From positions 62,001 to 126,000 of the forward strand of contig NZ_JAPRAQ010000007.1 of assembly GCF_029989365.1 (NCBI RefSeq): a DNA stretch of 64,000 nucleotides. The letters are read 5' to 3'. Numbering within the stretch: the first letter of the stretch is position 1; each line of letters opens with the position of its first letter. The stretch is from Bradyrhizobium sp. Arg816. Its GTDB lineage: Bacteria; Pseudomonadota; Alphaproteobacteria; Rhizobiales; Xanthobacteraceae. The translations under genes were made by a program, and so were the position numbers. The notes beneath the pieces are model-generated. The model did not search any database and was not told where the DNA came from. It saw nothing but the letters and a program-made list of their open reading frames with translations. Shown here in pieces: positions 365 through 18,988 of this stretch.

Positions 365-889
365 CTAGGAGCCGATCACCGCGAACCTCCCCATCGCACG
401 CCGCTTGGACTGCCACACCTCTGCGTCGGACTGGTAGTGCATATGAAGATGACGCTCCGGCGTCAGTACGAAAACATCATCTCCCCAATCTTCGCCAACC
501 GCGCAGAGGCTGACTGCGGCCTGACGCATAAGTCGCGGCGCCAGCAATCTTGGCAACACTAACCGGTAGCAAACACCATCGTGGACAAAGAAGCCGAGCC
601 GGACCATGAGCGCGAATTCGCGGCTGAACATGCCATAGCCATCCGCGTACAGCTCGAATGCGGCGGCACAATTCTGTTGCCTCAGCTCATCGAGCGTTTC
701 ACGAGCGAAGGCCGATAAATCTGGAATGCCATCGGCGTGAAGCAGATAGGCCTGATCGTGGAACTCCCGATCCTCCTGCGCGGCCGACCATAAGGCTTCG
801 GCTTCACTCGCCTTGGCGAGCCAAGCCGCTTCAAACTCGGGTCGCTCTCTTGGCATCTCTAAGAGGACGTGCGTGGCAGAAGGCGACAT
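365..889 (-). CDS. hypothetical protein
   Basis: A 174-residue soluble protein with no signal peptide or membrane segment and no domain I recognise. I chose the ATG at 889 because an AGGAGAG Shine-Dalgarno lies about 8 nt upstream; an in-frame start at 952 would add 21 residues without such a site. The N-terminal half is rich in Glu and Ala. It sits alone, antisense to its neighbours, beside the recombinase gene at 1223, so it may be cargo of the mobile region. Confidence 0.55.
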   Translation of the reverse strand: MSPSATHVLLEMPRERPEFEAAWLAKASEAEALWSAAQEDREFHDQAYLLHADGIPDLSAFARETLDELRQQNCAAAFELYADGYGMFSREFALMVRLGFFVHDGVCYRLVLPRLLAPRLMRQAAVSLCAVGEDWGDDVFVLTPERHLHMHYQSDAEVWQSKRRAMGRFAVIGS

Positions 890-1222
890 CTTCGGCTCTC
901 CTATAGATTCCTTGGCGGGTAGGAAAACTGTGCTTTTGCGCCCGACTCTCAAGCACAGTATCGCAGCACGATGCTGAGCGAAATGCCTCGCCTAGTCGGA
1001 GGCCGAAAAATTTTGGCGCGCGGTGTTGCGAACGTTTGAGATGCGACTGTTGGGGGACGCCAGGGGGGCGGTCGCCAGGGTACCAGCCGCTGCCCCACAC
1101 CGTCACGGCTTCGGGCGTTGAGCTCTATTCAAATGCTTCCGTCCTCTTCCACGCGCGGCTCTTGCGCAGATTCGCGCCTTGTAACATACTGACGCTCGTT
1201 TGCTTGTTACGAGATTGATGAT
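890..1222. other. intergenic stretch upstream of the recombinase
   Basis: No gene is supported here. The stretch must hold the promoters of the divergent genes on each side, but no clear sigma-70 or other box can be picked out. Confidence 0.4.
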
Positions 1223-1873
1223 TTGCAGCCTATCGTCGCCTACTATCGCGTTTCCCGAGAGAAGCAGGGCCGCTCAGGCCTCGGCCTCGACGGCCAGCGG
1301 CGCCTCGTCTCGGTCTTCGCCAGCAACGAGGACATGGAGATCGCAGGCGAGTTTACAGAGGTCGAGACCGGCAAAGGTGCAGATGCGCTCGACAGGCGCC
1401 CGCAGCTCGCCGCTGCCTTGCGGAAAGCTAAACAGCTCAAGTGTCCGGTCGTTGTGGCCAAGCTGGATAGGCTTTCGCGCGACGTGGCATTCATCGCCGG
1501 TTTGATGGCGAAAAGGGTGCCGTTCATCGTTTCGGAGTTGGGCAAGGGCGTTGACCCCTTCATGCTGCACATCTATGCCGCTGTGGCGGAAAAGGAACGC
1601 AACGTCATCGCTGAACGCACCCGCCTAGCTCTTGCGGAGGCTAAGCATCGAGGCAAGCGGCTCGGCAATCAAAGACAGGCCGAAATCAACAAAGCCGCTG
1701 CAGCGAGTCGGGACGCTCGGCTAGAGCCTATCCTGAAGACCATGTGGGATCTTCCCTACCGGGAGATCGCGCAGGAGCTGACCGAGCGTGGGATACCCGC
1801 ACCTCGTGGAGGCGGTTGGAATGCAATGACGGTGATGCGCGTCATGAAGAGGCTTGGAGTTGGTGGCGACTAA
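1223..1873 (+). CDS. recombinase family protein (small serine recombinase)
   Basis: A 216-residue protein of the resolvase/invertase superfamily. The catalytic domain (about residues 1-135) shows the nucleophile motif YYRVSREKQ, with Ser at about residue 11, and the conserved AKLDRLSRD arginine block at about 75-83. A helix E-like stretch [10 protein letters not shown] follows. The last 60 residues form a small helix-turn-helix ending in [18 protein letters not shown]. The only plausible start is TTG at 1223, with a weak ribosome site. Such enzymes cut and rejoin DNA at short crossover sites. No neighbouring crossover site was recognised, so it could drive resolution, inversion or element excision. 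Confidence 0.85.
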
Positions 1874-1931
1874 GCGTTGACCACGAAGTGACGTCGGCGA
1901 GCGCTTCTTGACCGCTGCCGCCTTCCTCTCC

Positions 1932-2213
1932 TCATTCCACAGGGATGCCTCTGGCAGGCCGCTTACTTTTGCTGAACATTTTCCGGGAAAGTGCGTACTT
2001 CGCCTCTCGGTTTCGCTTGATGATCTGCAACCCGCGCCCACCGTGCTTCAAGCAGGTCGGAACGCCCTTCAAGGCGATGTTGCGGCAGCGCTGCCCCGTG
2101 CATCGCGCGATAGCCTCGCACAGCCGCCTGTTGGCGCGTCCCGGCTTAATCGCCGTTTGTATCCGAGACGCTCTCCATGCCGCGTTTCCGCTCCCGGCAG
2201 TCTTGTGACGCAT
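1932..2213 (-). CDS. HGG-motif small zinc-finger-like protein
   Basis: A 93-residue basic protein. Its centre has the pattern C-x4-C-x10-C-x2-H-G-G (CTGQRCRN...CLKHGG), typical of short mobile-element proteins carrying an HGG motif and probably able to bind one metal ion. The tail is Lys/Arg-rich. ATG 2213 has GAGGAG about 8 nt upstream; the frame stays open to 2282 but without a better start. It faces the serine recombinase gene tail to tail and probably belongs to the same element. The function is unknown. Confidence 0.6.
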   Translation of the reverse strand: MRHKTAGSGNAAWRASRIQTAIKPGRANRRLCEAIARCTGQRCRNIALKGVPTCLKHGGRGLQIIKRNREAKYALSRKMFSKSKRPARGIPVE

Positions 2214-2514
2214 CCTCCCGGCTCCTCTGTCACTAGCTTGTTTGGCTACAACAAAGGTGGCGCCACCATGTATTTTGCACAAGGATGAGACTCAGTTTGC
2301 CCGCACAAGGCGCCTCAATGGCCTAATGGCCGCTATTCCTCTGGTGAGTTCGTGGCGGAGTATCGGCTTCATCAGTTGATTTGGTGGCGCTCATTTGCGC
2401 ATTGGTGCTCCGTTGGGGAAAGGCTAATGCGCGCACATTTGCGCATTAGCTTTTCCCTTAGGGCACCGATCAATAACGCGCAGATTGGCTTGCGCCATTG
2501 CTGCGCCATTGGCT

Positions 2515-4533
2515 TCAATCCAATGCGCATATTGTTCCCGGCCTCTTGGCGTTGTCGACCCGGAGGCCCTTCACAGTCTTTCGGGTTTCTGGATTGTTGT
2601 ACTCGAACTCGACCAGGAGCCCGCTCCGCAACCACGTCTGGATGACCTTGCGGGCCTCTCGCTCGGGCTTTTCTGGCGCGTGCTTGCTGACGACCTGCCA
2701 AGCCGCGCGGGTGGAGGCGTTCGGCGCAGCCGTGTAGAAGGTGCCGTCCGGCAAGCCTCGATCGATCTCAGTCAGCATGCTGTTCAGCCGAGCATCCGGC
2801 AAATCCGCCCACAGACGCGGAGGGTTCCAGACCTCGACCGTTTGAACTTCGTCACCATTGGGATACATGTCCGTCTCATTGCCGATCCTGACGCCAATCA
2901 ACTTGAACCAAGTTTCGCGACCGCCAACGGCAGCAAGGTTCACCTTGGCGCGGTCGTAGCGAACATATTGCCGGCGCTGCCCCTCAGAGATGCCGTACTG
3001 TTGCGCCTCCGCCTCACTCATTGGCGTCAAGGTGTAGGCCAGCCGGGTGGCATCGATGAGGGCGCTCGCGCCTCGACCGCGATGTGCGTCGCCCGGTCTG
3101 TCTTGGCCCTTTGAGGTATGGTGGGGCACGTCGACGGCGATATCATAGCGTATGGCAATGTCTGACAACGCTTGAAGAACGCCATCCACGGCCGAGTTCG
3201 AGTTCTCCTCGATGCGGTGGGCCTTCACCAAGGGATCGATGATAACGCAATCGATGTCGTGCCTCTCGATCGCCGCCTCGAGGTGGCCCCTGAGCTGCCC
3301 GTCCATGATATGGCCGGCGGCGTTCATAACTTTCAGCTTACCTGCGCTCGCGCCCGGCGCGGCGAGGAATAGCCAACCATCCAGCTCCGACCTGGCGATG
3401 TCGTAGTGAAGGCAGGCAGCCAGGATGCGCCGGCGCAACTCGTCCGCGTCATCCTCCAAACTAACAATCAGCACGCGGCAGCGTTGGAAGACGTGCTCAT
3501 CAGTCAGTCGGCGCCCGGTGGCGAGTGCGAGGGCCTGGAGAATCCGCATGGCAGACTTGCCAGTGCCTCCCCCGGCCAAGAGCGAGCTCACATATCGGCG
3601 GCAAAGGCTATTGCCGAGCAACCACGCGCGCGGCGGCGGCGCGTCGCGATCGAGAGCAGCGTTCCACTCCTGAAGTCCTGCGCCGCCATTTGACACCGGA
3701 AACTTCTGTTCCGCGCTTTCGACAAGACGCGGGATCTCCGCGTACCGTTCGCGCCACCTATCATCCCTAGGTGCAGCCGAGGCCTCCATGAGCGCCCGCA
3801 ATTGATTGACCGCGGCCCCCGGGCTCGTGCCGGAAGACGTCATCTTGGCGGCAAGGCCGCGCAGGGAGTCGTGCAACGCATGGCCCGCGATGACGTTTGC
3901 GGTCAATTCTTTCCAATCGCTCGGGCCGGCCAGGTCAGCGTCGGAGCCCTTGCCTTTGTGGAGCGGCCGCCGGTAGCCAAAGTTCGCCTCCAGCAGCGCG
4001 ACAATATCCGTAACGAGCTGCTGGGCCTCACCGCCGCTGATGTGCGGCAATTCCGCAAGAAGGACTCGCCCGGGCTCTCCGCCGTGCCAGCAATAGCTCT
4101 GGCCGGTGTCCGGGTGGACGCCATTGACAACGAGTTGTTGCCCGTCGCACAGGAACTCGATCTTTTCACTTACACCATTCGGTGCCGTGAGGTTCGCAGT
4201 GATCTTTTTGAAGACTTGATCAGTGCGGAACAATATTGCCCGCTTGGGCGGCTTCCCGATCCGAACCAGGACATGCCCGTAACGGTCCTTGATCAGGTCT
4301 TCAACTGCCTGAGCCGCATCCGCGTTGAGGATGTCGATGTCCAGCGAGGGCATTCGCCGCGTCAGGCAGCCCGTGTTCGTTGCGTGGGGGTAGAGTTTAC
4401 TCCAGATTTCAATGTCGCCTGCTGACGTCTGGTCCCGCTTCTGCCAGCCCTCGATGATCGGGCGCTTGCCGACCAGCGGCAGCGGCTCATAGCCACCACG
4501 CAACAAGATCTGGCGCACGTCCATCGGCGTCAT
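2515..4533 (-). CDS. primase-polymerase / AAA-type helicase fusion protein
   Basis: A 672-residue two-part replication protein. Residues 1-165 form a Prim-Pol (bifunctional DNA primase/polymerase) domain: the PLVGKRPIIEGW entry, the catalytic Asp pair in SLDIDI (about 65 and 67) and the GVHPDTGQSYCWHGG block (about 138-152). Residues 305-520 form a RepA/AAA_25-type ATPase with Walker A GGGTGKS (about 321-327), Walker B CVIIDPL and a PHHTSKG motor motif. The C-terminal 130 residues are probably DNA-binding. It should prime and unwind DNA for autonomous replication of an element. The ATG overlaps the stop of the upstream gene (ATGA), so it is the distal gene of the operon 5979>2515. Confidence 0.85.
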   Translation of the reverse strand: MTPMDVRQILLRGGYEPLPLVGKRPIIEGWQKRDQTSAGDIEIWSKLYPHATNTGCLTRRMPSLDIDILNADAAQAVEDLIKDRYGHVLVRIGKPPKRAILFRTDQVFKKITANLTAPNGVSEKIEFLCDGQQLVVNGVHPDTGQSYCWHGGEPGRVLLAELPHISGGEAQQLVTDIVALLEANFGYRRPLHKGKGSDADLAGPSDWKELTANVIAGHALHDSLRGLAAKMTSSGTSPGAAVNQLRALMEASAAPRDDRWRERYAEIPRLVESAEQKFPVSNGGAGLQEWNAALDRDAPPPRAWLLGNSLCRRYVSSLLAGGGTGKSAMRILQALALATGRRLTDEHVFQRCRVLIVSLEDDADELRRRILAACLHYDIARSELDGWLFLAAPGASAGKLKVMNAAGHIMDGQLRGHLEAAIERHDIDCVIIDPLVKAHRIEENSNSAVDGVLQALSDIAIRYDIAVDVPHHTSKGQDRPGDAHRGRGASALIDATRLAYTLTPMSEAEAQQYGISEGQRRQYVRYDRAKVNLAAVGGRETWFKLIGVRIGNETDMYPNGDEVQTVEVWNPPRLWADLPDARLNSMLTEIDRGLPDGTFYTAAPNASTRAAWQVVSKHAPEKPEREARKVIQTWLRSGLLVEFEYNNPETRKTVKGLRVDNAKRPGTICALD

Positions 4534-4880
4534 GCATTTCCCCCTGCACCGCCACCATGGACGACCCGGCTCATGAAGTCGTGGAACGCCGCATCAGACC
4601 GGATCAGCTCGATACGACGGTGCAGCCGCTTCCGGAGCTCTCTCAGCGTCTTGGAGGTGACGGCCTTGGAGTGCGTTGCTGCCAGAGACATGGAGAGCAT
4701 CCCGGCAAGCGCGGTGGTCAGGGCAGACGCCGTCTCCGCAGTTCTGAAGATAACCACGCCGGAGTCGTCCACCCTTGAGGTCTCTATGATGGCCTTGGTG
4801 ATCGCCGCCGACATCGCGCTCTCAAACGTCTCATCGTAGTGGTCGAACGCCCCTGCGTATTTGCCGTGAGGATCGGTCAT
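4530..4880 (-). CDS. small operon protein, unknown function
   Basis: A 116-residue protein starting MTDPHGKYAGAFDHY. ATG 4880 overlaps the TGA of the ParB-like gene, and its own TGA overlaps the ATG of the primase-helicase, so it is translationally coupled on both sides. It is predicted to be mostly helical and basic in the last third (LRELRKRLHRRIELIRSD). The tight coupling suggests a helper in replication or plasmid-like maintenance. An in-frame extension to 4964 is unlikely because it would overlap the upstream gene deeply. Confidence 0.7.
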   Translation of the reverse strand: MTDPHGKYAGAFDHYDETFESAMSAAITKAIIETSRVDDSGVVIFRTAETASALTTALAGMLSMSLAATHSKAVTSKTLRELRKRLHRRIELIRSDAAFHDFMSRVVHGGGAGGNA

Positions 4881-5581
4881 GGTACGGACTCGACGTCTCT
4901 GACGTACGCCGGGCCGGTGAACCCCAGGAACTGCTCCCTCTCTTTGCAGGATGCCCTGCGCCACGCCTCGGTCAACTCGCCGTAGACCGAGGTGCCGTGG
5001 TTCGCGACGACCACGTCACCCTGAGCCACATCAAGCTGCAGCGCCCCTTTTAAGTTGGCAGTGGATCCTCTGCCGTCTCGCCTGCGCCTGCCGTCCCTGC
5101 CGATCGTCTCCCTCAACTGGGGAATTTCCCCACTTGATTGTTCCTTTGCGCGGACCGAAGCGACCGTCTTGTGATCGACCTTCACGATCGCGGCGATCTG
5201 GCGGTTCGACTTGTCTGGCGCCAAGATCAAAAGCTTGGCGATCAGTTCCTGTTTTTGCTCCGTGGAGAGATGTCGTCGCAGGAAGTTCTTGGAGAGCACG
5301 TAGCTGATCGGGTCCCGGCCCGCTGCGTTGCGATGCGGGATGTTCTCCCAGTCAGGTTTTCCATTGGCGGTGACCAGCGTTGCGCCAGCCATTTCCATCG
5401 CGTCAAGCCGATTGCGGCCATCCAGCAACTGGCCCTCGAACACTGCGACGCCCTCATGCAGGCGGTTCTTCTGGATGTCGTCGCCGAGCTCTTGCAGCTC
5501 CTGCTCGGACATGAGCGTCAGCAGCTCGGCAGCTGGATGGATCGGCAGCGCGTCACGCCACGACAGTTTGCCTTTTGTCAT
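4877..5581 (-). CDS. ParB/Spo0J-like nuclease-fold protein
   Basis: A 234-residue protein with a ParB N-terminal-type domain (about 10-110): IHPAAELLTLMSEQELQELGDDI, then VFEGQLLDGRNRLDAM, the signature box of ParB-like proteins. A helix-turn-helix follows (SNRQIAAIVKVDHKTVASVRAK, about 130-152), and the C-terminus is basic. Such proteins occur in phages and integrative elements as regulators or DNA-binding factors; there is no ParA partner here, so true partition is unlikely. ATG 5581 is preferred over GTG 5590 from the spacing to AGAGGGG. It is second in the operon after the AlpA-like gene. Confidence 0.8.
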   Translation of the reverse strand: MTKGKLSWRDALPIHPAAELLTLMSEQELQELGDDIQKNRLHEGVAVFEGQLLDGRNRLDAMEMAGATLVTANGKPDWENIPHRNAAGRDPISYVLSKNFLRRHLSTEQKQELIAKLLILAPDKSNRQIAAIVKVDHKTVASVRAKEQSSGEIPQLRETIGRDGRRRRDGRGSTANLKGALQLDVAQGDVVVANHGTSVYGELTEAWRRASCKEREQFLGFTGPAYVRDVESVP

Positions 5582-5700
5582 ACCGGTCACCCCTCTTGCG
5601 CGAGAGATCCGACCGGCGTATTGGAAGGGCGTTGGAAACGCCGATCGTTCTCCGGTCGGGATTTAGAAACGCCGCCCCACTCTCCGGGGCGGCGTCTTGC

Positions 5701-5979
5701 TTAGGCGGCCTCTTCGGCCTGGCGCTGCCTATCTCGTTTATTGGCAGCGATGCTCGCGGCCTTCTCTTCTCGCTCAGCAATCCACGCGGCCACGGCCTCG
5801 TCCGCGATGCGGATGCCGGTGCGGCCAAGCACCATTTCGCGGGGCCCCCAGCCCTCGCGCTTTGCTCGTTCGTACGTGGATCTCGAGATGCCGACTGAGG
5901 AGCAGAACTCATCGACGGTCCAGGACGCACGCGGCACCGGATTGCGCAGACTATTCTCCTCGCGCGATCGACACGCCAT
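5701..5979 (-). CDS. AlpA/excisionase-like DNA-binding protein
   Basis: A 92-residue protein with a MerR/AlpA-type winged helix: SWTVDEFCSSVGISRSTYERAKREGWGPREMVLGRTGIRI, followed by AVAAWIAERE. The tail is strongly charged. ATG 5979 has the strong Shine-Dalgarno AGAGGAG; an upstream ATG at 6015 lacks one. It is the promoter-proximal gene of the minus-strand replication operon and diverges from a second AlpA-type gene at 6258, an arrangement typical of satellite or ICE control switches. The likely role is transcription control or excision. Confidence 0.75.
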   Translation of the reverse strand: MACRSREENSLRNPVPRASWTVDEFCSSVGISRSTYERAKREGWGPREMVLGRTGIRIADEAVAAWIAEREEKAASIAANKRDRQRQAEEAA

Positions 5980-6012
5980 GATGCTTCTCCTCTTTAGGAT
6001 GCCGAGTGCCTT

Positions 6013-6257
6013 CACTCACCTTGTTGACGAACAGTGTGCGCTCGACCTTCGAACGTGAAAAGAATTTTTCTGAAAAACGAGAGCTTACTTTTGGTTAGCT
6101 CAAGAATCTCAAAATCTAAAAAACCCCTGCAACACAGGTACTTCTTAAACAGCTTTCTTTTAGTTAGTCCCAAACTCGTGATCGAACAGACACTCGACTG
6201 AATCTGGCCTCGCGCTATCGTGGCCGCATGCTGTTTCAAGGAATATCGAGGTGAAGC
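6013..6257. promoter_or_regulatory. AT-rich divergent control region with imperfect direct repeats
   Basis: This 245-bp stretch between the two divergent AlpA-type genes is much richer in A and T than its surroundings. It contains two similar blocks, GCTTACTTTTGGTTAGCT near 6083 and GCTTTCTTTTAGTTAGT near 6152, about 70 bp apart. They could be operators for an AlpA-type protein or iterons of a replication origin. Promoters for both operons must lie here. Confidence 0.45.
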
Positions 6258-6530
6258 ATGACGACCACCTCCAGGCGAAGCGACCGGCACGACCTGCGGC
6301 CCATGCTAACTGAGCAAATGGTTCTCGAGCTTGTCCCGATCTCTCGCACCACTCTTTTTCGCCTCGAGCGCGCCGGCAAATTTCCGCGCTCGGTCTACGT
6401 CAGCCCGAACAGGCGGTTCTGGTTTCGCGATCAAGTCGTCGCGTGGCAGACCGCTATCAACGACAATGATGAGCGCAACCCGAAGCGAGGACGCGGCAAG
6501 GGGCGACGGCGGCAAAGCATTGCATCGTGA
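6258..6530 (+). CDS. AlpA family phage-type regulator
   Basis: A 90-residue protein with the classic AlpA fold: MLTEQMVLELVPISRTTLFRLERAGKFPRSVYVSPNRRFWFRDQVVAWQ (residues 16-64), followed by a basic RGKGRRR tail. AlpA proteins activate integrase or excision genes in satellites and prophages. GAGGTGAAGC precedes the ATG. It diverges from the ParB-like/primase operon. Its C-terminal half is duplicated about 210 bp downstream. Confidence 0.85.
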   Translation: MTTTSRRSDRHDLRPMLTEQMVLELVPISRTTLFRLERAGKFPRSVYVSPNRRFWFRDQVVAWQTAINDNDERNPKRGRGKGRRRQSIAS

Positions 6531-6589
6531 GCTGAACGTCAGAAGGCCGGGAGAATGCCATGCCCACGCCGCGCCAGATGGTGACGAGC

Positions 6590-6729
6590 CCAAAGTTCCC
6601 GCGCCTGGTCTAGGTCAGCCCAACCGACGACTTTGGCTTCGCGATCAAGTCGTCGCGTGGCAGACCGCTATCAACGACAATGATGAGCGCGATCCGAAGA
6701 GAGGGCGAGGCAAGGCACGTCAACATTAG
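6590..6729 (+). pseudogene. decayed partial duplicate of the AlpA gene
   Basis: Bases about 6600-6722 repeat the 3' half of the intact gene (about 6385-6507) with only a few changes, notably a near-identical 50-bp run coding DQVVAWQTAINDNDER. The copy has no start or N-terminal helices and ends at TAG. It arose by local tandem duplication followed by loss of the 5' part. Confidence 0.7.
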
Positions 6730-6894
6730 GCATTTGGCTCTCGGCCGCCAAAGCCAGCGTTATGGTCGATTCATATTCGTCCTCATGGAATAGCCTTTGC
6801 GCCTGAGATCGAAACGGTGTCACCTCTTCCCCGAGCACAGTTAACGTCCTGGCCTGATTGAGGACTGTTCCGATGCGCCTTCCAGTCCTTTATC

Positions 6895-14277: not shown

Positions 14278-15843
14278 GTGAGGGTTGGCAACTTGCGCTA
14301 TTGCTTCGAGGAATTCGCATTTGACATCGACCGGCGCGAACTCCATCGCCGGGCAGAGGTCGTTTCCATTGCGCCACAGGTGTTCGATCTGCTCGAATAC
14401 CTGATCCGAAACAGGGAGCGCGTCGTCAGCAAGGACGACCTTATCAAGGCCGTTTGGAATGGTCGCATTGTGTCCGATGCTGCGCTTACGACCCGCCTGA
14501 ATGCTGTCCGCGCTGCCATCGGCGATACCGGCGAGGAGCAGCGCTTCATCAAGACGCTTCCGCGCAAGGGCTTCCGTTTCGTCGGACAGGTGCGGGAGAC
14601 GCGAGAAGTTGCGGACCCAAGTCCGAGCGATGCGCCCGAGAGCGCTCTCACGCTCCCCGACAAGCCCTCCATCGCCGTGCTGCCGTTCGAGAACATGAGC
14701 GGCGATCCCGAGCAGGAATACTTCGCCGATGGAATGGTTGAAGAGATTACTACGGCGCTGTCGCGGTTCAAATGGCTCTTCGTTATCGCTCGCAATTCCA
14801 GCTTTACCTACAAGGGCAAGGTGGTGAACGTGAAGCAGGTCGGACGCGAGCTGGGCGTGCGCTATGTGCTTGAAGGGTCCGTGCGCAAGGCGGCAGGGAA
14901 GGTTCGCATCACAGGGCAGTTGATCGATGCGGTTACGGGGGCGCACATTTGGGCGGACAGGTTCGAGCGTGACCTGACCGACGTTTTCGCTCTGCAGGAC
15001 GAGGTAACGGTCGCTGTTGTCTCCGCCATTCAGCCCAAACTGCTTCTAACAGAAATTGCGCTGGCGACACGGCAGCGACCGGAGAACCTCACCGCCTATG
15101 ATTTTTTTCTCCGCGGCTTACCGCAGTTTAACCTAGCGACCCGCGAAGGGAATACCGAGGCGATGAGGCTGGCCCGTCGCGCCTTGGAGCTGGACCCTCG
15201 GTTTGGCCCAGTCGCAGCTCTAGCAGGTAACTGTCACATGCAGAACGTCCTTCAAGGCTACGCTGTCGATCCTCAATTCGAGCGCAAGGAAGCAGTTCGG
15301 CTTGCTCACTTGGCATTGAGCATCGACGATAGTGATCCGGACACGTTAGCAAGAGCTGCGGTAATCTTGGCGTTCATGGTCGGCGATTGTGAAAGTGAGA
15401 TCGAGATGGCAGACCGGGCGGTCGTCCTCAATCCGAATTCATTTTGGGCATGGCACTGCAGAGGCTGGGTCTACAAAGTTGCGGGGCTACCGGAGGATGC
15501 GATCCGGAACTTCGAACGCGCCATTCGCATGAGCCCGGTAGACCCGCTGCTGCACCGGTCGTTTACTGGGATGGGGTGTGCCTTCATCGAACTTGGTCGG
15601 TTTGACGAGGCTATCGCCGCAGGGAAGAAAGCCCTACGTCAGAACCCCTCCTTTCCAACATCTTATCGCTGTCTCGCGTCCGCCTTCGCCCATCTAGGAC
15701 GTGACGCGGAGGCGCGTGAGGCGGCGGCACGTCTGCTTGAGGTCGACCCCAGCTTTACGATATCGGCGTACATCGCTCGGGGCGGGCAATCAAACTCGAA
15801 GCTGTTAATTGAGGGGCTTCGGAAAACGGGGTTGCCCGAATGA
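14278..15843 (+). CDS. winged-helix / TolB-like / TPR regulator (CadC-type)
   Basis: A 521-residue protein. Residues 5-100 form an OmpR/CadC winged helix (ELHRRAEVVSIAPQVFDLLEYLIRNRERVVSKDDLIKAVW...GFRFVGQV). Residues 125-270 form a TolB/FlgO-like domain often found in adenylate-cyclase-associated regulators (KPSIAVLPFENMSGDPEQEYFADGM...RYVLEGSVRK). The C-terminal half holds TPR-like helices (for example AIRNFERAIRMSPVDPL). It probably binds DNA through its N-terminus and proteins through the TPRs. GTG 14278 has AAGGGAGG 6 nt upstream. No adenylate cyclase catalytic domain is present. Confidence 0.8.
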   Translation: MRVGNLRYCFEEFAFDIDRRELHRRAEVVSIAPQVFDLLEYLIRNRERVVSKDDLIKAVWNGRIVSDAALTTRLNAVRAAIGDTGEEQRFIKTLPRKGFRFVGQVRETREVADPSPSDAPESALTLPDKPSIAVLPFENMSGDPEQEYFADGMVEEITTALSRFKWLFVIARNSSFTYKGKVVNVKQVGRELGVRYVLEGSVRKAAGKVRITGQLIDAVTGAHIWADRFERDLTDVFALQDEVTVAVVSAIQPKLLLTEIALATRQRPENLTAYDFFLRGLPQFNLATREGNTEAMRLARRALELDPRFGPVAALAGNCHMQNVLQGYAVDPQFERKEAVRLAHLALSIDDSDPDTLARAAVILAFMVGDCESEIEMADRAVVLNPNSFWAWHCRGWVYKVAGLPEDAIRNFERAIRMSPVDPLLHRSFTGMGCAFIELGRFDEAIAAGKKALRQNPSFPTSYRCLASAFAHLGRDAEAREAAARLLEVDPSFTISAYIARGGQSNSKLLIEGLRKTGLPE

Positions 15844-16073
15844 AACGTGCGGCAGTGCGAATTGCAACTGCAACCACGGAGTTTCTCGCACCAGATTTCC
15901 TCAGCAGCTGCGGTCGCGCGGTCCCCCACCTCTTCACGTCTCGCAAAGGACCCCAAACCCTTGTCGCGATTGGACAATCAAAATTCTCGTAGGAAATCCG
16001 CAACGCTATCGCGCGACAGAGGCTTTTGATACAACCGGTGATCGGCGGGTCCGGAGGCGCAAGGATCGTAGCC
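15844..16073. other. short spacer
   Basis: No gene or clear terminator was seen after the TPR regulator. Confidence 0.3.
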
Positions 16074-16913
16074 ATGCAAATAGATCGCCGGTTCGCAGAT
16101 TACGCTTTGACTGGTGGCTTCTTCCTAATTGGCCATATGGGCATGCTTTGGGCTGCAGGATATTGGCCAACCATCCGCGATGGACTTCAAGGTTTGGGGT
16201 TAGAACCCAACACTCTACTCACCCCTATCGTCACAGGCTTTGCCGGCGCTCTCGCTGTGATCGCCGTGTTCGTCGTTGGACTGATACTTGACCTGTCCGC
16301 TTCTGTTTTTCGCGGCGAGGAAATGAAGATATTCGCACGTCACCTCGACCATAACAGCGAGTGGATGACCTCGTTTATTGAAGCCCACAAAGCTTATTGC
16401 GGGGCCGACTACGAAACCTTCCGGCGCGTAATCCGTGAACTGCCCACCCCCCGCGCAGGGCAGATCTTCACATCTAAGTTTTGGAAGCCCGAGGAGTTTA
16501 AGTTTTGGAAGCCTGAGAAATTGCGCCGCGATTTCGAAGCAACGAAGGTCGCGTGGGGATTTGGCATAGCCTCCGAATATGAGCGTCTATTGAGCTTCTT
16601 CACATCTTACATTGGCCAGTCTGGATCTGCGCAGCTGACCTTGATGGCTGATCAATACTCGCTCTGGCGAACGGCACGCGCAATCGCGATGGCTCTGTGG
16701 CTACTCGCCATTGAAGCGGTACTTGTCTCGAACATTTTCGGCCTCGTCGCGGCGGCCGCAATCATCTTGCCTATCCCTTGGATAGTCTTTGGCCTCACCA
16801 TTTTTATTATTCGCGGACCCTATTCCCGAATGTGCTTCACCTTGTTTTCGCTGCTGTACATGACATGCGAAAAACAGATCGTGCCACGGACGAATGCGGA
16901 TCGAGCGCCGTAG
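16074..16913 (+). CDS. membrane protein of unknown function
   Basis: A 279-residue protein. Two hydrophobic helices lie near the N-terminus (YALTGGFFLIGHMGMLWAAG and the GFAGALAVIAVFVVGLILDL region). A soluble charged middle (about 75-190) has a short internal repeat, KFWKPEEFKFWKPEKL. Two more helices are near the C-terminus (MALWLLAIEAVLV..., IILPIPWIVFGLTIFII). Codon use is less GC-biased than its neighbours, suggesting recent arrival. No family recognised. ATG 16074 is preferred over 16026 because it places the first helix properly. Confidence 0.6.
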   Translation: MQIDRRFADYALTGGFFLIGHMGMLWAAGYWPTIRDGLQGLGLEPNTLLTPIVTGFAGALAVIAVFVVGLILDLSASVFRGEEMKIFARHLDHNSEWMTSFIEAHKAYCGADYETFRRVIRELPTPRAGQIFTSKFWKPEEFKFWKPEKLRRDFEATKVAWGFGIASEYERLLSFFTSYIGQSGSAQLTLMADQYSLWRTARAIAMALWLLAIEAVLVSNIFGLVAAAAIILPIPWIVFGLTIFIIRGPYSRMCFTLFSLLYMTCEKQIVPRTNADRAP

Positions 16914-18988
16914 TCAGCTGTGCCGAAAGCAGAGGTGAGTTCGACGGGGCGGCTCGGCTCGATAGAAGATGCTGGCGGAAGCGGCGAATAGGTCGGCACG
17001 CCACCATCGGCCGCCATCGCTACGACGAGCGCGCCAAGCGGCCCTCAGGAAGGCCATGCAGCCGCGTCAGGAGCGCAGGGGGGTACTGGCAGACCAGACC
17101 GGGTCGCAGCGACGGGGCAGCGCAGAAAGGGACCCACCCGAGGTCGCGACCGAACGCCAAATCGGGCCGCGCCAGCGCCATGTGAAACTAGGGCCTATCG
17201 GGGCCCGGAGGGTTCGGGCGGCGCTTTCGTTCGCCGGGCAAAACTCGAATAATGCCTTCATTTTCAGACACTTCCGTCGTTCTCAACGGGCCCGAAAAAG
17301 CGCTGGACGCCAGGACCACACGGTTTTGCCGTACGCGCGGCTCGCCATGTTCGCCGCAGATTTTCAGCCCTGTCGACGTAGCCCGAAAACTACTGGCGAG
17401 ACGGGCCTGTCAGCGCCGTTCGTCCGCACGAAGCCTCGGGCTCACGCAGAGCAATCCGGCCCGCCTTTTGCCATTCGCACCCGACGCTGCCGCGTCCACC
17501 GCAAGCCCGGCTCGCGACACTGACGACCACATGATCATCCCTCAAGGATGAACCTGGATGGGCGACACATACGCCATTTTCTGAATTTCGGTAGCGTGGA
17601 ATATTTTGTACGATGGGATTGACATGTTTGCGGTGTTTTGCGCGACGGAAATTCTGTAGCCGACGGAGCATATTTCGCCGAGAATGCCTCGTTCGTTTCA
17701 GCCGCCGCTGCGGCGCTTCGGGCGTGCCGCCGCGATGCGTGTGAAGAACCGGCTGCAACAACGGCGTGCGGCGATATCTTAGCGAGCCCAGGACACTAAC
17801 GCTACCAGCGCTTCTCGGCAGCGACAGGCAATTGCCGTCGTTGAGCGCAGCCACGACGAAGCTCGAAACGCGCTCAATGGGGGCACGTTGCTTTGGTGGC
17901 CTGAGCGCGGCTGACGGCGGCGTGTCGGTCGATCCAGAGACTTTTCTCAGACCGGAGATCGTCCCCTCCTTCGGCAACGATCGAATAATTCCCCAGCGTC
18001 TGCCCAATCCATTCGGCCTGACCTGCTTACAATCTCACATTGGCCGTGATGAGATTTTTCTTGATCTCCCGGTGCACACGTCATGCACACGCGTCCCTCT
18101 AACTAATTGAAACTCTTAAACTCTCGGTCCAATCCATCATGGGCCAGTTTCAGCTAACAACGGCTAGAACAGCGTGGTCGCGCAGTGCGCCGGCAAGGTT
18201 CTCATAAGCGCCGCGCACGAAATTGTCGTAAACGACGATCTCGCCGACGTCAGTCTGCGTTGGCTGATCGACCGCATGCCAATCAAATTGAGCCGCTTTG
18301 CGTCAAAACTGCCGGTGCTCGAAGCTACGCTTTGGGACCCGGCCCTTCTGTACGATCCAACGCGTTGCGATACTCCATTAGTCAAGATGCAATGGATTTT
18401 GGAATTCTACCGGGATACGCCAAGCTCACTACTTCGGTCAGAATTCTCAACGCGAAGGAAGCGAGAACAACTCGACCAGACCACGCTAAACTACGCGATA
18501 CCAACAGGCCGCACTACTCCCACTCAGTCATTTAGGACGACATTACGGCGTTGATTTGCAAGCACAAACTTTCAAGGCTGGGAGACAGATCCCGACGGTA
18601 TGCCCGCTCTAACTTTTGATGCCGAATTCACGGGAAAATTCGTTCTGGTCGGAAGAATGGCGACTTCGGCAAGTATCGGAATCAATCGCCTGAGTGGCCG
18701 CAAGTGCCTAGCCGGGACGGCTACGGCTCGTACTCGCACTGCATAGCTTCCAGTACCGTCAACGATCAGGAAAGCGCGGGTTCAGTTTGTACGATGATCG
18801 CACGCACCGTTCACTCGACTCTGTCGCCGACATACATGTCCGCTTTGCGCAGAAGCTGCCGTCCCGCCGTTTTGACACGACCAAGACCCAAACCGGAAGT
18901 TTGCCGGGCTCCGAGCACCGTTGCTTATTTGACCGCTTCAAGGGGGCGGTATTCCGCACCGGACCATGCGTCGGGTGATAAAAGGCGT
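16914..18988. other. 2-kb decayed region
   Basis: I find no convincing gene. The longest frame with non-shadow composition is 18174-18554 (+), 126 residues (SLRWLIDRMPIKLSRFASKL...), unrecognised and without a ribosome site. A 28-bp segment at 18869-18896 repeats 10043-10070. The region looks like an eroded insertion boundary. Confidence 0.45.

Follow-up and report, generated by a model that had tools for sequence, protein, structure and literature searches.

What kind of mobile element does a compact group of replication and regulatory genes in Bradyrhizobium sp. Arg816 belong to? The group lies in a window of 64,000 nucleotides (contig NZ_JAPRAQ010000007.1, positions 62,001 to 126,000), on a contig that spans 390 kb of the 9.7-Mb genome. 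Four minus-strand genes encode an AlpA-like regulator (alpA2), a ParB-like protein, a protein of 116 residues and a primase-polymerase (Prim-Pol) fused to a helicase, and a divergent AlpA gene (alpA1) faces them. A preliminary description, made from the letters of the window, saw in them the replication and decision module of a compact, possibly satellite-type mobile element. The genes do look like a module by which a mobile element replicates and is controlled, but the compact outline did not hold. The operon is probably the module of an integrative island of 47.8 kb (-30444 to 17322), with an integrase gene 30 kb away. Coordinates are window positions, negative values lie to the left of the window and G000 denotes its genome; gene names given by eye were judged from listings or similarity, without profile support.

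What outlines the island is a tyrosine integrase at its left end, a putative attachment core repeated at either end, instances of the site that are unoccupied in other genomes, and kin islands that share the integrase but have different replication cassettes. This type of integrase was spotted near the module by a search for PF00589 in five genomes. The gene lies some 200 bp in from the left core, about 30 kb left of the operon. Within the 124 kb read around the window there are exactly two copies of the core, AGGACCACACG, at -30444 and 17312 and in the same orientation. Core-to-core sizes are 47,756 bp in G000, 43,783 bp in G193 and 44,590 bp in G093; the G058 island would measure about 44.2 kb if two contigs adjoin, an adjacency that is assumed. 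Orthologues of the integrase with 71-83% identity occupy similar positions in G193, G093 and G027; that of G058 is on another contig. The integrase lies 25-35 kb from a small serine recombinase gene, located next to the operon in the window, in all five genomes with both on one contig (30.1 kb in G000, 32.1 kb in G193, 25.1 kb in G093, 34.9 kb in G027 and, by hand, 32.1 kb in G141); G141 and G193 hold the same island. In all seven genomes inspected for it, AGGACCACACG TCTATATTTTGG comes before the integrase, and a core of the AGGACCACACG type lies upstream of it in 14 of 20 further stretches anchored on the integrase.

Sequence comparison places the attachment core within a dispersed Bradyrhizobium repeat, which is found unoccupied too. 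The core continues into GTTTTGCCGTACGC in the unoccupied copies L306, L307 and L308 as well as at window position 17312; this combined match was absent from 100 shuffles, and no chance match is expected at 17312. Counting the islands' own right ends and allowing up to one mismatch, the core with its right half occurs five times in G000, 12 times in G193, 11 times in G093, eight times in G105 and not at all in G183. A repeat of about 330 bp at -30762 to -30434, whose end is the attachment core, has several copies in each of six other genomes searched. Two other ideas about the target were rejected. No tRNA was found in the window or the scanned loci. An insertion site shared by the window and G058 elements, proposed from their matching right flanks, was dropped because the matching stretches are inside the ends later assigned to the islands. 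On that side of the G193 module which holds AlpA (L119), the right core separates a reverse-transcriptase fragment outside it (1209-1814) from a type IV restriction-like gene inside (3797-5032).

Several observations weigh against these island boundaries. The right core of G193 carries one mismatch, the G058 integrase sits on a separate contig, and G027 has a broken integrase frame and only the integrase-end core in the available DNA. No AGGACCACACG-type core lies upstream of the integrase in six of the 20 integrase-anchored stretches, and L136 and L227 have a different integrase, beside alpA2. The distance from alpA1 to attR is 10.8 kb in G000 versus at most about 1.4 kb in seven other elements in which AlpA and the right end were both seen. 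By guanine-cytosine (GC) content the island does not stand out (0.604 versus 0.603 and 0.609). An unoccupied version of the exact G000 locus was not found: G111 shares the left flank to -31428 (91%), but its sequence beyond differs from the G000 right flank. A search for an empty site around G027 gave no clean case either. Finally, the odds of about 4e-9 for a random placement of one integrase within 36 kb in four genomes ignore the common descent of these elements.

Table 1. Features of the island in and around the window (positions relative to the window; strand given where assigned).
Feature	Position	Strand	Evidence or remark
Candidate attL core AGGACCACACG	-30444 (outside window), just upstream of integrase		Core searches
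Tyrosine integrase, 467 aa	-30231 to -28828 (outside window)		Phage_integrase 1.2e-13, Arm-DNA-bind_3 domain
orf365, 174 aa, no known family	365..889	-	Comparison of elements
33-bp imperfect palindrome, res-like, upstream of serine recombinase	1180..1212	+	Matrix scan
Small serine recombinase, TTG start	1223..1873	+	Resolvase 1.8e-20
116-aa Cys/HGG-motif protein, function unassigned	1932..2282	-	PHROG 3678, 1.7e-6; homologue in G027
Prim-Pol + RepA/AAA_25 helicase fusion, 672 aa	2515..4533	-	Pfam, PHROG, homologue searches
116-aa protein of the operon	4530..4880	-	Profile and genome searches
ParB-like protein, 234 aa	4877..5581	-	Homologues, predicted fold
alpA2, helix-turn-helix/excisionase-like, head of operon	5701..5979	-	PHROG 66, NCBIfam
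Divergent control region	5980..6257	.	Composition, repeat scan
alpA1, divergent AlpA regulator	6258..6530	+	Pfam, PHROG
Remnant of second alpA1, truncated	6592..6741	+	Longest block identical to alpA1: 53 bp
Right-end arm of island	17181..17311	+	Similar in G058, G093 (part), G193
Candidate attR core AGGACCACACG, 11 bp	17312..17322	+	Core searches

The gene content of the module largely agrees with the preliminary description, which did not mention the serine recombinase, the truncated AlpA remnant, the distant integrase or the attachment cores. All five reading frames, the four on the minus strand and the divergent AlpA gene, are intact where they had been placed. The tight coupling ascribed to the operon applies to two junctions, with overlaps between the genes for the ParB-like and 116-residue proteins and between the latter and Prim-Pol, whereas alpA2 and the ParB-like gene are 119 bp apart. 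The spacer between the two AlpA genes, announced as a 245-bp AT-rich region with repeats, does contain short repeats (a direct one of 28 nt at 71%, another of 10 nt at 90%, and one inverted pair of 12 nt), but it measures 278 bp, has 45% GC (35% in the lowest 100-bp window) and its repeats may have arisen by chance. The alpA1 product passes the Pfam AlpA cut-off narrowly (21.3 bits, cut-off 21) and also matches a PHROG excisionase/regulator family. For alpA2, the match is to the excisionase/regulator family PHROG 66 (4.9e-6), with NCBIfam 'excise' below cut-off.

The ParB-like label draws on the predicted fold. The model has modest confidence (mean predicted local distance difference test score, pLDDT, 64.6) and its 12 best fold matches in the PDB are all ParB, Noc or Spo0J chains, but only one of the 12 has an E-value below 0.001 (2.6e-4), TM-scores by query length are low at 0.26-0.34, and no Pfam (including Pfam ParB) or NCBIfam family was matched above cut-off. 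The protein has a match in 28 of 265 genomes, four phage records and 36 plasmid records; relatives have its DGRNR motif and helix-turn-helix (HTH) region in common with it. The 116-residue protein of the operon was found in one of the 257 genomes searched, its own, and its model, built from one sequence, is poor (mean pLDDT 67.7). The fusion protein matches AAA_25 (3.7e-36) and Prim-Pol (1.4e-10) in Pfam, and its helicase half resembles the RSF1010 RepA helicase 1g8y (E-value 1.1e-16). Some match to it exists in 74 of 195 genomes. Among the ten best other matches, nine cover the helicase half only (52-62% identity) and one the Prim-Pol half (G082, 58%); the nearest relatives of the two halves within the genus differ. 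A first scan of viral sequences with the protein gave no match, and the 230 phage and 799 plasmid records that match it include none spanning more than 80% of its length.

The gene order recurs in part. The exact four-gene set was seen only in G000, but the order of AlpA-type, ParB-like, small and PrimPol/helicase genes is found again in G018, where alpA2, ParB, two small genes and PrimPol/helicase are followed by a head-like protein (7.4e-8), all within about 10.5 kb before chromosomal genes. Judged from its gene list, this stretch is no complete prophage and no plasmid.

The genes nearest to the operon, the serine recombinase and orf365, belong to a recurring module. In other genomes, differing replication cassettes lie between such a recombinase, mostly accompanied by an orf365 relative, and an AlpA gene. 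By eye or similarity, these cassettes hold Prim-Pol and VapE-like genes in G027, a Toprim-type primase and a helicase in G058 and G093, and a Prim-Pol protein in L134; in G193 and G141, the same kind of judgement adds Prim-Pol and a helicase to a sliding-clamp protein (Pfam central domain 1.7e-10). The replication cassette between the conserved ends is exchanged among islands. Relatives of orf365 adjoin the recombinase in G193, G141 and G027 and lie on its inner side in L135, L156, L227 and G093, and G058 has no orf365 match among its called genes.

A small mobile unit of some 6.5 kb (roughly 365-6741), moved by its own serine recombinase and nested in an older island, could account for outer ends that are conserved beside different neighbours in G058, L134 and G093, for the palindrome upstream of the recombinase in the ten scanned sequences with upstream DNA, and for the related recombinase in 72 IMG/VR loci. 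We consider it quite unlikely. Each of these ten sequences has one strong palindrome match, which leaves no pair of sites to recombine, and integration by the serine recombinase is not favoured for this reason. The matrix used was itself built from ten such sites (the window site and nine others), picked by eye among 22 upstream regions of which several, including those of L132, L145 and L153, show no obvious palindrome. The sequence of L227 begins at the recombinase gene and has no palindrome match, and the window palindrome is the single strong copy in the 124 kb scanned. Homology among G058, L134 and G093 crosses the palindrome without a stop at its centre. As for bounding repeats, which the preliminary description proposed to look for, no direct repeat longer than 13 bases encloses the small unit in the four elements compared; AGGACCACACG bounds the 47.8-kb island. 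Direct repeats adjoining alpA1 were considered as ends and rejected, as only short matches were found. A single palindrome per element would fit multimer resolution or self-regulation better than integration.

The IMG/VR locus L259 (6,547 bp) has a 127-bp direct terminal repeat and carries a recombinase, an alpA2-like gene and a HicAB-like pair (by eye); it may be a small circle. In L156, an HmaC-type ATPase (E-value 0) is encoded at 15115-17952, near a recombinase unit.

The integrative island of G000 looks as if it had accreted from several related elements. Two fragments match the G058 type, one from a recombinase (-4303 to -4136) and one from the sequence upstream of a recombinase (-9762 to -9695); together with the truncated second alpA1, we read them as remains of earlier elements of this kind.

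Packaging genes were looked for across the integrase family. At 1e-60, 61 of 257 genomes have a match to the integrase. Among 20 integrase-anchored stretches of 20 kb, ten have an AlpA-like match and four contain both cores (13.5, 17.4, 17.7 and 19.0 kb). Five large islands, including that of the window, gave no convincing match to head queries or two TerS queries; one partial match to packaging-type queries, in G093, is a protein of unknown function. In line with the preliminary description, no capsid gene was found in the window island. Packaging-type genes are a minority feature in the observed part of the integrase family, because neither the 20 stretches nor the five large islands yielded a convincing match.

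Compact kin do carry such genes. The G183 element, of the same integrase family and about 10.8 kb long, encodes AlpA, a helicase 62% identical to the helicase half of the window protein, a head-like protein, a small-terminase-like protein, a PIN-domain protein and the integrase. Its head-like protein (356 residues) matches the major head family PHROG 617 (2.8e-12), on which the claim rests because Pfam Phage_capsid (0.023) is below cut-off; the small-terminase-like protein matches PF05119 (1.7e-6, above cut-off) and PHROG 83 (6.6e-10). G073, again of the same integrase family, encodes AlpA, ParB-like, RepO-like HTH, head-like (1.3e-11), TerS-like and FRG-domain proteins, the TerS match being weaker (PHROG 1496, 7.6e-5; Pfam below cut-off). 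G018 has a different integrase with a weak Pfam match (0.0089) and a 121-residue protein weakly like the large terminase (0.0025). No portal or full large terminase was seen among the called proteins of at least 300 residues, all of them scanned or integrase-matched, in G183, G073 and G018, and a profile search of the three head-like proteins against solved structures gave no match. Head-like relatives in IMG/VR comprise 20 loci, 13 with a stretch 38-42% identical to the G073 protein. Two separate head-like matches occur in ten of these 20 contigs (L340-L345, L347, L348, L350 and L353), and in L340, L343 and L348, among five gene-listed contigs, one of the two is a longer head-like fusion of 640-731 residues.

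Since compact relatives carry packaging-type genes, the gene kit resembles that of phage satellites, and the operon looks like an early module of the kind that satellites use. The satellite-type label of the preliminary description is thus supported for some kin; for the window copy it would apply to ancestry, as far as we can infer. A satellite reading is weakened by the absence of head-like or TerS-like matches at 1e-4 from all 20 integrase-anchored stretches (which may stop before the element end), by the right end of G183, which rests on a 60-bp match at 73% identity instead of an exact core, and by the route to G183, G018 and G073, which were reached by following matches to the helicase or ParB and so were not sampled at random. 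A wider idea is tentative and rather doubtful: a Bradyrhizobium phage-satellite family that would integrate into a dispersed repeat, include compact forms with a short head protein and a small terminase, exchange whole cassettes between fixed AlpA/recombinase ends and accrete to islands of 44-48 kb sized by a helper capsid.

The gene set is not specific to satellites, because phage-type contigs, L360 among them (most genes named by eye), likewise have ParB-like genes beside genes for replication. The contigs L360-L363 from IMG/VR resemble the window in having a ParB-like gene near replication-type genes but differ in that L361 and L362 seemingly also have a large terminase (by eye). The operon could accordingly be the early region of a decayed prophage that lost its structural genes, as ParB-like, HTH and primase genes co-occur in phages. 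ParB-like and VapE-like matches lie among phage-early-looking genes in L360 (named by eye), and in L263 Pfam identifies a small terminase (8.8e-15) and inspection by eye a large terminase and a portal, next to a PrimPol relative that is full-length and 36% identical. However, head, TerS and related queries left the five large islands without a convincing structural match and several kin keep a coherent gene set with att cores and defence-type cargo, which makes a prophage origin very unlikely.

Helper conjugation offers a different route, in which an integrative mobilisable island would move with the help of another element and its replication genes would serve stability. Both the size of 44-48 kb with host-type cargo (by eye) and a helicase of the plasmid RepA kind are consistent with this, but no relaxase or coupling gene was noticed among the called genes, inspected by eye and without a profile search. 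We regard this route as unlikely.

For the integrative island, we infer excision, replication as a circle, an AlpA switch and helper-dependent transfer. The integrase would recombine the two cores and release a circle, with the divergently transcribed alpA1 and alpA2 deciding between the integrated state and induction. The ParB-like protein might bind the element, Prim-Pol could prime and the RepA-type helicase unwind so that the circle replicates, and the serine recombinase would resolve multimers at its single palindromic site. Transfer would need a helper, because no capsid or terminase gene was found in the window copy.

Gram-negative phage-inducible chromosomal islands (PICIs) such as EcCICFT073 and PmCI172 have unique, specific attachment sites and are induced by phages, according to PMC6092414. 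The same source describes an integrase at the element end, an AlpA regulator and an own primase-replication gene, as in the window island, and some PICIs encode a small terminase or a capsid-type protein, as do the compact kin. Set against this description (PMC6092414), the island has a dispersed repeat as its site (each of the five genomes searched contains 0 to 12 near-exact copies), and the window island is 47.8 kb long and has no match to terminase or capsid queries. The module could function in the manner of the early region of a PICI or of P4. Although int, alpA and primase-replication genes are all present, the island is not filed as a PICI, since its attachment site is not unique but belongs to a dispersed repeat and no packaging gene was found in this copy (terS is absent from some PICIs too). 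What an integrative island should have was found, namely an end-located integrase, direct-repeat cores and an unoccupied counterpart, the latter elsewhere (L306-L308).

P4-like satellites and CP4-57 have an AlpA-family regulator and a primase-helicase, and the Arm-DNA-bind_3 integrase domain is presumably linked to P4; the window island resembles them in all three. It differs by its combination of Prim-Pol with a RepA-type helicase and by exchanged replication cassettes. PMC11389934 names P4 and mentions satellites proposed in soil bacteria. Capsid-forming PICIs (PMC11389934) have a parallel in the head-type proteins of G183, G073 and G018, but these compact kin hold only one head-type protein each and, among their called proteins of at least 300 residues, no portal or large terminase. 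In the phage-satellite literature covered, which leaves out most subscription journals, no title or abstract opening describes this island family.

Large islands of soil bacteria often have no known transfer route. For one such family, names can now be put to both ends of the island and its integrase, to the repeat that serves as target and to the module for replication. A few compact relatives carry packaging-type genes, which suggests that phages may mediate transfer in the family. In the 17.4-kb G135 element, a Dsr1 defence protein (L325:2621-6430; PADLOC, E-value 0) adjoins the integrase.

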